Shown here one piece after another: positions 4,928 through 21,067 of a stretch of DNA of 64,000 bases. The stretch is from Alphaproteobacteria bacterium (lineage in GTDB: Bacteria; Pseudomonadota; Alphaproteobacteria; UBA2966), in NCBI GenBank assembly GCA_018650465.1, contig JABIFY010000007.1:1-64000 (forward strand). Reading direction: 5' to 3'. How positions within the stretch are numbered: position 1 is the stretch's first letter; each line of letters starts with the position of its first letter. A program made the translations under genes and the position numbers. The notes beneath the pieces are model-generated. The model worked only from the letters and a program-made list of their open reading frames with translations. It made no database searches and was not told where the DNA came from.

Positions 4928-5827
4928 ATGGACCAGCAAACACCTTTTGATCGCGCCCTGTTGCGCCAGCGCCGCAATCGCGCTGCGACCCGATATGGCG
5001 ACTACGACTTCCTGACGGCGGAAGTAACCGATCGTTTGCTGGACCGGCTGGACGACATCAAACGACCCTTTGCCGATATATTGAACCTTGGCTGCCACAC
5101 AGGCCTGGCAGGTGAAATCATGTCTGCCCGAGCGGACACAAAGTTTCTTGTGCAAAGTGATTTGTCTGATCGCATGGCCGGACTTGCCCAAAACCGTAAC
5201 GATCTTTTGACAGCGATCCTCGATGAAGAGGCCCTGCCCTTCGCCGAGGAAAGTTTCGACCTGATCGTCAGTGCCCTTACCCTGCATAACGTCAATGACC
5301 TGCCCGGTGCCTTGATTCAGGCCAATCGCTGTTTGCGGCCCGACGGGGTATTTTTGGCGTCCATGTTCGGCGGGCAGACCCTGGTTGAGCTGAAAGAAGT
5401 TTTGATGCTGGCGGAAAGTGAGACGGCAGGCGGCGTGGCCTTGCGGGTATCACCCTTCGCCGATGTAAAGGACCTGGGTAATCTGTTGCAGCGAGCCGGA
5501 TTTGCCCTGCCCGTTGCCGACAGCGAAATCATCACCGTGCGCTACGAAAGCCCGATGAAGCTGTTTACCGACCTGCGCGGCATGGCCGAAAGCAATATCC
5601 TTAATGCCCGTTCGCGCAAGCCCTTGCGCCGGGATACCTTGATGCGGGCTGCCAGTCTTTATACGGAACGTCATGGCGGTGATGATGGTCGCGTGCCCGT
5701 GACCTTTGAAATTGTCAACCTGACCGCCTGGCGACCGGACGCCAGCCAACCAAAACCTGCAAAACGTGGGTCCGCAACCCACTCGCTTGCAGACGCCCTG
5801 AAGGTTCCGGACAAGCCCAATCGTTAA
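4928..5827 (+). CDS. Methyltransferase-fold protein, NDUFAF5-like
   Basis: A 299-residue protein starting MDQQTPFDRALLRQRRNRAA, the typical N-terminus of alphaproteobacterial homologues of human NDUFAF5, a methyltransferase-fold assembly factor that hydroxylates an arginine of complex I. The SAM-binding segment reads LNLGCHTGLAGE and a later strand LIVSALTLHNVNDLPGAL. The start is set at 4928; the frame is open to 4826 but that extension would overlap comF. A role in complex I assembly is inferred from homology recalled, not shown. Confidence 0.82.
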   Translation: MDQQTPFDRALLRQRRNRAATRYGDYDFLTAEVTDRLLDRLDDIKRPFADILNLGCHTGLAGEIMSARADTKFLVQSDLSDRMAGLAQNRNDLLTAILDEEALPFAEESFDLIVSALTLHNVNDLPGALIQANRCLRPDGVFLASMFGGQTLVELKEVLMLAESETAGGVALRVSPFADVKDLGNLLQRAGFALPVADSEIITVRYESPMKLFTDLRGMAESNILNARSRKPLRRDTLMRAASLYTERHGGDDGRVPVTFEIVNLTAWRPDASQPKPAKRGSATHSLADALKVPDKPNR

Positions 5828-5830
5828 TTA

Positions 5831-5895
5831 GTGCCAGGCACCTGTTAACCTTCATTAAATAGTGCCTGTCACTATTTAATGGTCACTATTTAATG
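5831..5895. repeat. Short palindromic repeat cluster
   Basis: Three related units lie just behind the methyltransferase stop codon. AGTGCCAGGCAC is at about 5830-5841. CATTAAATAGTG (5853-5864) pairs perfectly with CACTATTTAATG (5870-5881) across a 5-nt loop. CACTATTTAATG is then repeated at 5884-5895. The arms match the sequence around the in-frame TAG at 19.5 kb. The layout resembles REP-type palindromes, and the hairpin could also terminate transcription. Confidence 0.7.
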
Positions 5896-18511: not shown

Positions 18512-18540
18512 ATTCTTCTTTTCCCAAACACTATATCTAC

Positions 18541-18697
18541 GTCATGCGCGGGCTTGACCCGCGTACCCACGTCTTCGGGAAACGAGTTGGCCAGAAGCCA
18601 GGTTTTCCAATTTTCGCAACTCCCGTAAAAGGCCAGAAACTTTTGCCTCAAGCCAACTGCTGTCAAGACGTGGATGCCGGATCGAGTCCGGCATGAC
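18541..18697. repeat. MITE-like inverted repeat, copy A
   Basis: This fills half of a 307-nt gene-free stretch. The left arm GTCATGCGCGGGCTTGACCC (from 18541) and the right arm, ending GAGTCCGGCATGAC at 18697, are imperfect inverted repeats of about 35 nt that share GTCATGC at the ends and CCACGTCTT inside. About 85 nt of unrelated sequence separates them. Similar GTCATG-bounded units occur at 20974, 54024 and 63882. No coding content is seen. Confidence 0.75.
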
Positions 18698-18753
18698 AGA
18701 GAGTGTGAGTGATAGGCAAACCGTAACTTGCCCATCACCCCTCCCGCATACAC

Positions 18754-18786
18754 AAAAAAACCCGTTCTGAAAAATCATGAACGGGG
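18754..18786 (-). terminator. Rho-independent terminator of the cassette
   Basis: On the minus strand CCCGTTC pairs with GAACGGG (18761-18767 with 18779-18785) and is followed by seven T residues. It lies 33 nt beyond the stop of the 204-residue frame, and ends the minus-strand cassette. Confidence 0.75.
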
Positions 18787-18818
18787 CGGGCCTGCGGGGG
18801 AGTTGGGGTCTGACTAAA

Positions 18819-19433
18819 TCACCAGAGTTTCTTTCGTTTCGATTGAGCGTGTCGTGCCAAATCTGTCAGGGTTGGATTAAGGGGCAAACGGAATTCCTCC
18901 TCGTCGACCTCTGGCTGCGGATTTGGATCAGCTGCTGCAAGCCGCCGGGCGACGGACTCATTTTTCGCCACGTCCGGATATTTTGTGATTGCCATTGCCA
19001 CAGCATCGTCCGACCAGGGCTCGTACTCATCTTCATTATATCCCATGGCCAGATACATCTTTTCCGCTGTCGACAGTTCCTGACCATCACGCCGAACCAG
19101 AGGCGGCAACTGCGGCTTGCCCATATTCGGATAGAGGTTGTCCAACATTTTCCGCTCCCGGGCATCTTGTGCCTCATAATCGGGAACGGAGGGGGCAGGT
19201 GATACGAGGGTGTTCACGGGCTGGGTGTCGTTACGCGCGACCAACAAAGAGTTGCTTCGCCCCGCTGTTGCCGGTTGGCTGTACAGGGATGGGGTAGGCA
19301 GTACTCCTGTTGGCGTTGCAGTCTGCGACTCCAAGCCTGGTGATGCGTCGGGTGTAACGGGTTGCATCTGTTGAAAAGCGGCAGGCATGTGTTCTTGAGA
19401 GGGCGCATTGTCGGAGCGTTCATTCCTGCCCAT
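18819..19433 (-). CDS. Unrecognised protein, C-terminal part of a TAG-interrupted frame
   Basis: The reading frame gives 204 residues from the first ATG. The N-terminal half is rich in Pro, Gln, Thr and Ser (residues 10-85), followed by a charged part with LDNLYPNMGKPQLPP, MAITKYPDVAKNESVARRLA and a basic end QSKRKKLW. I do not recognise the family. Translation upstream of this ATG is still protein-like (AGEWKKEELKSKGILDGLMG) and continues without frameshift to a single TAG, beyond which the 79-residue frame lies in the same frame. It is therefore probably the distal part of one gene of about 307 codons. No good start site stands before ATG 19433. Confidence 0.5.
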   Translation of the reverse strand: MGRNERSDNAPSQEHMPAAFQQMQPVTPDASPGLESQTATPTGVLPTPSLYSQPATAGRSNSLLVARNDTQPVNTLVSPAPSVPDYEAQDARERKMLDNLYPNMGKPQLPPLVRRDGQELSTAEKMYLAMGYNEDEYEPWSDDAVAMAITKYPDVAKNESVARRLAAADPNPQPEVDEEEFRLPLNPTLTDLARHAQSKRKKLW

Positions 19434-19502
19434 GAGGCCATCCAGAATACCCTTCGATTTAAGTTCCTCCTTTTTCCATTCCCCGGCGATAAATTTATAG
19501 TG

Positions 19503-19505
19503 CTA
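19503..19505 (-). other. In-frame TAG splitting a longer reading frame
   Basis: The minus-strand frame opening at 19742 reaches TAG here, then stays open to 18819 in the same phase (the starts at 19742 and 19433 differ by 309 nt, 103 codons). The TAG sits inside AGTGCCTAGCACT, a near-palindrome closely matching the repeat at 5861-5880. A nonsense mutation, insertion of a repeat unit, or suppression are all possible. Confidence 0.8.
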
Positions 19506-19742
19506 GGCACTTTTTTTAGCGCGTTTGGCTTCCTCGTCATATCGGTCCCAGTCTGCCTTGTCTTGTGCCGAGTTCCGGTTTTTGATAGCTGCGGCCTCGA
19601 TTTGGTCGTAGCGTTTAGCGGCAGCGTCATATCTAAGTCGCTGCGACCCAGCGTAGCGATATTTCCTCAAGGCCTTTTCAGCTGGACTTTCTTGCCTCTC
19701 GTTTTCAGAGTTGTTTGAGTCTTGTGGTGTAAGGGGTGACAT
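19503..19742 (-). CDS. Unrecognised charged protein, N-terminal part of a TAG-interrupted frame
   Basis: A 79-residue, strongly charged, predicted helical frame: a polar start MSPLTPQDSNNSENERQESP, then repeated aromatic/basic turns (KYRYAGSQRLRYDAAAKRYD) and an acidic-basic end DWDRYDEEAKRAKKSA. The family is not recognised. The start ATG follows a complete terminator by only 13 nt, with GGAAAC as a weak ribosome site. It continues past its TAG in the same frame into the 204-residue frame, so it may be the front of a single longer gene or a truncated product. Confidence 0.5.
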   Translation of the reverse strand: MSPLTPQDSNNSENERQESPAEKALRKYRYAGSQRLRYDAAAKRYDQIEAAAIKNRNSAQDKADWDRYDEEAKRAKKSA

Positions 19743-19754
19743 AATTTGTTTCCA

Positions 19755-19782
19755 TAAAAAAAGACCGCCTAAGGCGGTCCCG
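19755..19782 (-). terminator. Rho-independent terminator between cassette genes
   Basis: GACCGCC and GGCGGTC form a 7-bp stem with a 3-nt loop (19763-19779), followed on the minus strand by TTTTTTT. It closes transcription from the 294-residue gene. It ends 13 nt before the start codon at 19742, so the downstream frame would need read-through or its own start within the hairpin region. Confidence 0.85.
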
Positions 19783-19875
19783 ATTGAATTGATTGTTGTT
19801 GAACTTCAGGTGTTTATGAATGTCAGTGCATTTTCATCTCCTGTTTGCTGATGTGTTGATCATCCGGACAATCCC

Positions 19876-20760
19876 TTATTCTTCTTGCCGAGCAAAAAGA
19901 TTAATACCAGTCCATTCGTAGATCTTGACCAATGTGCTTCCGATAAGATCGGTCACAGTATCGTTCATAAAATAATACTGGCGGAGATTGCCAATCTTCC
20001 TCGGGTTGATCCCCCTGATTCCATTTTCGTTGATCGTAGAAATATATCTGTCAATAATGACATCATTCATCGGCTGCCAACTACTTTGAACTAGATATGG
20101 CATCTGGTAGTAACCCGGTTCCATTTCCCAGCAGTAGTTATTTTTGGCAGGCAGATATCTGAAAACCGGGCCACCTCTTGCGCAATCATGTTCGGGAGAA
20201 TTTGCCAGAACTTTGCCGACTTGCGGTTTGAAGTTGGTGTCTTCCGAGATAAAATATTCCCCGATGGCCAATTTCTTTTTGGGTGGCCAGGCTGGGTCAA
20301 ATTCCACGATATCGTATCGGCAAAATGCCGGGCAGACATTCCCAACTTCCTCAACAAACAAATTCAGGACTCTATGTCTGCTGGAAAACGGAACCGATGA
20401 AACCAGGGCAATAGAGACAATCAACACAAGGTGTGTCTTTGTCAGCAAGCGGCGTTCGATTCCCTTGAAATCAATAGCCAATAAGGCCAGGGACACCCAA
20501 ATTGCAATATCGACCAACTCATAAGCCTTCGGATACCAGAGAAGGTGGTCATTAGCATAGTTCGACGGATGGAAGTTGATAGAAAAGAGCGAAATAAAGT
20601 ACAGGGCAAAAAGCAGGCCGCCAAATATTTTCCTGCCGATGGAAATTTGATGCAGTCCCGGGAAGAGAATAAAGACGGTCAGTCTGGTGACATATTTCAC
20701 CCCGCGCGCAACTGTCCAGTCAGGCGGCAGAAAAGGTATTTTTGATTGTATGAGTTTCAT
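19876..20760 (-). CDS. Unrecognised membrane protein
   Basis: A 294-residue protein with three or four hydrophobic segments in the N-terminal 125 residues: about 29-60 (with FPGLHQISIGRKIFGGLLFA, a Pro-Gly...Gln...Gly-Arg pattern like TM2-type membrane proteins), 85-100 and 110-125. The remaining 170 residues are soluble-looking, with cysteines in NVCPAFCRYD, HDCARGG and NNYCWEME that could form disulfides outside the membrane. It does not match a family I can name. It is AT-richer than its neighbours and has its own promoter candidate and terminator. Confidence 0.65.
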   Translation of the reverse strand: MKLIQSKIPFLPPDWTVARGVKYVTRLTVFILFPGLHQISIGRKIFGGLLFALYFISLFSINFHPSNYANDHLLWYPKAYELVDIAIWVSLALLAIDFKGIERRLLTKTHLVLIVSIALVSSVPFSSRHRVLNLFVEEVGNVCPAFCRYDIVEFDPAWPPKKKLAIGEYFISEDTNFKPQVGKVLANSPEHDCARGGPVFRYLPAKNNYCWEMEPGYYQMPYLVQSSWQPMNDVIIDRYISTINENGIRGINPRKIGNLRQYYFMNDTVTDLIGSTLVKIYEWTGINLFARQEE

Positions 20761-20881
20761 GCCCTCCAGTATGAAGGGATTAGAGGGGTTTTTTCGGAAA
20801 TGTTTGAATTTTTTTGATGTGGGTTGGATTTGGTCTGTCCGATAACCTGTTCAGGCGCGAAACTCCACCACATCTTTTTGC

Positions 20882-20910
20882 ACATTACAGGAAAAGAAAC
20901 GCTTTGTCAA
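20882..20910 (-). promoter_or_regulatory. Candidate sigma70 promoter of the membrane-protein gene
   Basis: On the minus strand a perfect TTGACA (20905-20910) is followed after exactly 17 nt by TAATGT (20882-20887). It lies about 120 nt upstream of the start at 20760 in an otherwise gene-free 307-nt stretch. The -10 is only partly matched. Confidence 0.45.
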
Positions 20911-20973
20911 CGCATAAAACGTAATATACGTAGATATTTTGATGTTGGGTTTCTGATGGTACATTCCCTATAG

Positions 20974-21021
20974 GTCATTACCGGGCTTGACCGGCGTACC
21001 CGTGTCGAGCACGGGCATGAC
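20974..21021. repeat. GTCATG-bounded palindromic repeat, copy B
   Basis: A compact 48-nt copy: GTCATTACCGGGCTTGACCG at the left and GTGTCGAGCACGGGCATGAC at the right, in inverted orientation. Together with copy A (18541-18697) it brackets the cassette of unrecognised genes. The remainder of the 20761-21067 stretch holds only the promoter candidate and T-rich sequence. Confidence 0.7.
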
Positions 21022-21067
21022 AAGGTAATAAAATTTGGTTTTTTGGTGAACCGCAGCAGACGGTTCT

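Follow-up and report, generated by a model that had tools for sequence, protein, structure and literature searches.

A probable recent nonsense mutation in one copy of a multi-copy gene family restricted to a single alphaproteobacterial genus

Background

The survey of Belinky et al. (2021; PMC7918605) reports a dN/dS below 1 for many bacterial genes that carry internal stop codons, and argues that internal stops of this kind are widespread in bacteria. The gene described here resembles the nonsense-mutation genes of that survey: it has one in-frame stop, is otherwise intact, and shows a dN/dS well below 1 downstream of the stop. Unlike the genes surveyed, it comes from a single genome, so that the persistence or reversion of the stop cannot be judged.

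Two further described systems resemble parts of the locus. As in the REP/RAYT systems (PMC2817692, PMC3116915), a RAYT-type Y1 transposase is encoded in the genome (at C64) with short dispersed palindromes directly after it, some palindromes occurring as opposed pairs; unlike in those systems, the site within the gene matches the palindrome core only and is at most a putative copy. The family of the gene upstream of the interrupted one appears to have the C-terminal layout of signal peptidase I (family S26), but it lacks recognisable Ser-Met-x-Pro and Lys motifs, and it differs further in its conserved CPxxC cysteines and in its added membrane helices.

Here we analyze a stretch of 64,000 nucleotides (hereafter the window) from an alphaproteobacterial draft genome, in which a first-pass annotation, made from the sequence alone, had proposed that one gene is split by an in-frame TAG. 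We put the probability at roughly 0.7 that the stop arose by a recent nonsense mutation and that the gene is one copy of a multi-copy family confined to a genus.

Results

Layout of the locus and coding signal across the stop

The interrupted gene occupies positions 19742..18819 of the minus strand, where a 79-codon frame and a 204-codon frame have a common phase, just as the first-pass annotation had stated (79 codons from 19742 to 19503; 204 codons from the ATG at 19433). The upstream part (19503..19742, minus strand), delimited as an open reading frame, encodes a charged, helix-rich N-terminal region and ends at the TAG, which lies at 19503..19505 (minus strand) in the context GCC TAG CAC, a short way past a run of seven A. 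In total 23 open codons, all in the same phase, separate the TAG from the ATG at 19433 (19434..19502, minus strand; HYKFIAGEWKKEELKSKGILDGL). The 204-codon frame (18819..19433, minus strand) starts at an ATG without a well-placed Shine-Dalgarno sequence, comprises a linker and a conserved C-terminal domain of about 105 aa (LPPLVRxDGQ..EKxYPAMxYxE...W; 18819..19148, minus strand, as delimited by the family alignment), and terminates at a TGA (18821-18819). Just ahead of the start codon of the upstream part lies an intrinsic-terminator hairpin (GACCGCCT-T-AGGCGGTC, then T7; 19763..19779, minus strand; folding z -2.96), an arrangement found alike in the paralogues, and the gene is followed by a terminator (CCCGTTC..GAACGGG and a T-run; 18761..18785, minus strand) similar to those of the paralogues.

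Codon bias keeps to one frame through the TAG. With a codon-usage score trained on 23 genes of the window, the coding frame reached +0.08 bits/codon before the TAG (versus -0.33 and -0.56 in the other two frames), +0.52 bits/codon directly after it (versus -0.81 and -0.30), and -0.13 bits/codon in the linker (versus -0.41 and -0.33), and it again scored highest in the domain stretch. The earlier remark that the 23 codons between the frames read like protein is borne out, as these codons are open and coding-like in the same frame only. The shared phase of two frames is by itself a 1-in-3 chance, and it is the paralogues that make the claim of one gene solid. We also considered a hidden frameshift at the run of seven A and rejected it, the frame being identical on both sides. 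The same continuity bears on the reading that the stop is an error, or a minor variant, in the consensus of the assembly, to which a draft of 163 contigs and a stop just behind seven A lend some credit: the unchanged frame rules out an error of homopolymer length and leaves a substitution error as a requirement, and we consider such an error quite unlikely.

Paralogues and the one-gene architecture

The C-terminal domain has 11 matches in its own genome and three in a MAG of a sister species (SI054_bin61; JABILA01), with none in the other 383 of the 385 Alphaproteobacteria searched; the same MAG was the sole match when GTDB r220 genomes were scanned with a domain pattern. The domain matched no family in Pfam, NCBIfam or PHROGs, the region had no match in Rfam, and no relatives were found in phages, plasmids or viral contigs. 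Six copies (L006, L007, L009, L012, L015 and L017) run uninterrupted in a single frame; intact copies measure about 240-300 aa, and their N-terminal part is charged and mostly helical. The closest intact paralogue, the C62 copy (L007), is a single frame of 297 aa with 95% amino acid identity in the domain, and its sister-species orthologue (L006) is a single frame of 296 aa. In most intact copies an upstream membrane gene is followed by a hairpin and T-run, then by a Shine-Dalgarno sequence and ATG within about 15-20 nt, and a terminator stands after the gene (the exceptions to this shared context are L015, which has no hairpin, and L012, which lies near a contig end). The window gene has the same upstream partner, the same hairpin, T-run, Shine-Dalgarno sequence and ATG, and the same terminator; because it has the full start context of its paralogues together with the partner gene and terminator, the ATG at 19742 and the domain belong to one gene. 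The proposal that a single gene is split by the TAG is thus supported by paralogues of the downstream part that are single proteins and share both the two-gene context and the hairpin-Shine-Dalgarno-ATG start of the window gene.

A comparison with homologues of both parts, as the first-pass annotation had suggested, gave a divided answer: the paralogues of the downstream part have an N-terminal part of their own in unbroken frames, whereas the N-terminal half of the window gene has no homologue to set beside them. The N-terminal parts differ, so the comparison with the six unbroken copies at the stop position is one of frame continuity and not of aligned residues. No homologue of the N-terminal half was found in 61 relatives, its matches among 385 genomes of the class were weak and apparently composition-driven, and a profile built from eight other N-terminal parts fails to recognise it, 998 of 1000 shuffles scoring equally well. 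With no homologue of this half to compare, the codon that stood there before the TAG cannot be reconstructed. A gapless alignment with L009, made by eye and of equal length across the stop, was unsupported by the profile test and was dropped as evidence. With the TAG read as a residue, the predicted structure has one long helix (residues 20-96) through the stop position; at a mean pLDDT of 56 and a pTM of 0.19, this low-confidence helix would be consistent with one gene.

The dispersed palindrome

The first-pass annotation had also located the TAG within AGTGCCTAGCACTAT and matched it to a unit at 5861, which is correct with two mismatches, and it had taken the site for a copy of a dispersed repeat, which is not confirmed. 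The dispersed repeat of this genome is a palindrome of about 25 nt (TTAAWTAGTGCC[TA]GGCACTAWTTAA), of which the copies at 5823-5880 form an opposed pair (BIME-like) and the copies at C64 stand directly behind a RAYT-type transposase gene (Y1_Tnp 1.9e-17); the loci noted for the palindrome and this transposase are 5823-5880 in the window and L001 1350-1560. At the gene site (19497..19511, minus strand) the resemblance is to an 11-nt core with one mismatch, the palindromic flanks being absent, and this weak match is probably due to chance or is a degenerate relic. Against a profile of the palindrome the gene site scores 13.5-14.8 bits, compared with 36-42 bits for the true copies at 5823-5880 and a maximum of 13.3 bits in 20 random windows, a resemblance that appears somewhat above chance for one window and clearly not that of a full copy.

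That a REP-like unit inserted in frame and brought the stop, one of two alternatives offered earlier, would draw on the single base that separates the gene core GTGCCTAGCAC from the repeat core GTGCCTGGCAC and on the RAYT-type transposase at C64, which could move such units. The weakness of the match and the missing flanks leave this insertion unsupported, although it keeps some small probability because the N-terminal half has no homologue to compare, and the copies inspected closely (5823-5880 and C64:5526) are intergenic. Moreover, insertion alone would not bring a TAG, because the commonest core GTGCCTGGCAC reads GCC TGG CAC in this frame. We regard such an origin of the stop as highly improbable.

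Read-through of the TAG

TAG serves here as an ordinary stop, contrary to what a reassignment would require. It ends 4 of the 23 window genes and the family copies L007, L013 and L016, and the search for a suppressor tRNA found no CUA anticodon among 32 detected tRNAs, a set that is incomplete, with several isoacceptors absent. These observations count against the other earlier alternative, namely that some ribosomes read through the TAG and yield a low amount of full-length protein, as do the RNA past the stop, which is less structured than shuffles (z +2.25), and the intact copies, none of which has a stop at a comparable place. In its favor are the coding signal in the same frame on either side of the TAG, the dN/dS of the domain, and the base that follows the stop, which is C; a C after a TAG is a known leaky stop context. 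Nothing was found in support of programmed read-through, low-level leakage is possible, and we judge read-through as an account of this gene to be unlikely.

Selection on the domain and the age of the stop

Between the window gene and L007 the domain has a dS of 0.22 and a dN of 0.015 (dN/dS 0.07), with 13.5 synonymous differences. When changes were polarised with L006, the window branch carried six synonymous and two non-synonymous changes, one of the latter being a P->L change at a proline kept by all other family members. Neutral drift along the entire window branch is rejected (P 0.003-0.012), and the neutral share of that branch is at most about 30-40% (95% bound). The domain was under strong purifying selection from its split from L007 until recently, and it follows from the low dN/dS and the bounded neutral share that the TAG is recent, or that the domain is still made; a dN/dS of 0.07 fits a recent lesion and read-through equally. 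Gene conversion with the C62 copy is another way in which the counts of changes could be lowered, but with 13.5 synonymous differences a very recent conversion is hard to reconcile. One genome of this species was compared, and the sister species has no module at the same site.

The domain might also still be made as a separate protein of 204 aa, by re-initiation at the ATG at 19433 or from an alternative start. Its continued constraint would agree with this, and an AAGGAGG does lie between the TAG and that ATG, but at about 32 nt from the ATG it is too distant; in no copy of the family is the domain a gene with a separate start and signals of its own, and L008, a lone domain, has no in-frame ATG ahead of it. 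Separate production of the domain therefore seems to us very unlikely.

Loss is routine in the family, because other copies are frameshifted, truncated or deleted: the C114 copy is frameshifted; a start, a TAG and the last 43 residues remain of the C68:99889 copy; the L008 copy has no N-terminal part; and the C69 and G001:C24 copies are without the domain. A recent nonsense mutation fits this turnover of copies.

The upstream membrane gene and the two-gene module

The partner gene (19876..20760, minus strand) encodes a membrane protein with a CPxxC motif that resembles a degenerate signal peptidase I (S26). Peptidase_S26 (PF10502) matched 2 of the 13 members of the membrane family, these being more divergent relatives (best E 6.9e-6), and left the window protein itself unmatched; the best solved-structure matches of the membrane-protein model were signal peptidases as well, at weak scores (best E 5e-3). 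Inspection by eye did not reveal a recognisable catalytic Ser-Lys dyad, as neither a Ser ahead of the Met/Cys-Pro motif nor a Lys within the RIVGxPG box is conserved. Extra copies of S26-like membrane genes, tandem or fused, occur at L054 and L055 (G000:C157 and C129), where a 499-codon frame at C129 holds two.

The two genes form a module that spans 18715-20951 in the window and is also present at L007, L009, L015, L016, L017, L019 and others; in one genome its parts give 14 membrane-gene and 11 domain matches. The 3' end of the module (18715..19237, minus strand) has 88% DNA identity to the intact C62 copy (L007), and the 5' end (the promoter region together with the initial codons of the membrane gene; 20681..20951, minus strand) has 87.5% identity to the same copy. 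The central 1.4 kb or so diverges from C62; it contains the bulk of the membrane gene as well as the second gene's N-terminal part, and the two membrane proteins are 37% identical. From this one clear pair, we infer that the family may consist of modules whose ends are conserved and whose cores can be exchanged. The flanking genes (epoxide hydrolase and accA) lie side by side in the sister genome, where the module is absent. A second type of palindromic repeat (GTCATGCCGGACTCGATCCGGCATCC-like) flanks the module at 18540-18700 and 20975-21022, the sister genome having no module here.

Elsewhere in the family (L010, L014 and L016) the N-terminal parts joined to the domain are of another, calcium-binding-like kind; among these proteins, L014 has a match to a phage 'protease' family. 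A hairpin and T-run directly before the Shine-Dalgarno sequence and ATG of the second gene was observed in the window (19763-19779) and in L006, L007, L009, L012, L016 and L017, with stem sequences that differ; read-through of the terminator may be needed for the second gene.

Discussion

A recent nonsense mutation, the explanation that we favor, would have struck a gene for one protein of about 307 aa, composed of a variable and predictedly helix-rich N-terminal part, a disordered linker and the conserved C-terminal domain, and made behind the degenerate signal-peptidase-like membrane protein. A point change, presumably a substitution, would have turned codon 80 into TAG, and the present product would most likely be a 79-aa fragment without the conserved domain: a fresh loss-of-function allele, from which functional full-length protein is probably no longer made. 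The point against a recent loss is that the domain is almost without relaxation, which would also suit continued expression via read-through or re-initiation. A bolder proposal is that the TAG, as a leaky stop that is regulated or tolerated, sets the dose of one partner in an undescribed paired module. The module would join a degenerate signal peptidase to a protein whose N-terminal part is variable and whose C-terminal domain is shared, the two exchanging their central part between conserved ends; we find this proposal very doubtful.

As for the role of the module, it is plausible, judging from its composition, that the shared C-terminal domain acts in sorting or docking and has an S26-like membrane protein, catalytically dead, dedicated to it. 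If the favored explanation is right, the stop itself is ordinary gene decay, and the family around the stop is the more interesting part. Known from two marine genomes only, this two-gene family, to which the stop points, is undescribed and restricted to one genus; its ends are conserved, its core is variable, and its copies appear to be gained, exchanged and lost within one lineage.
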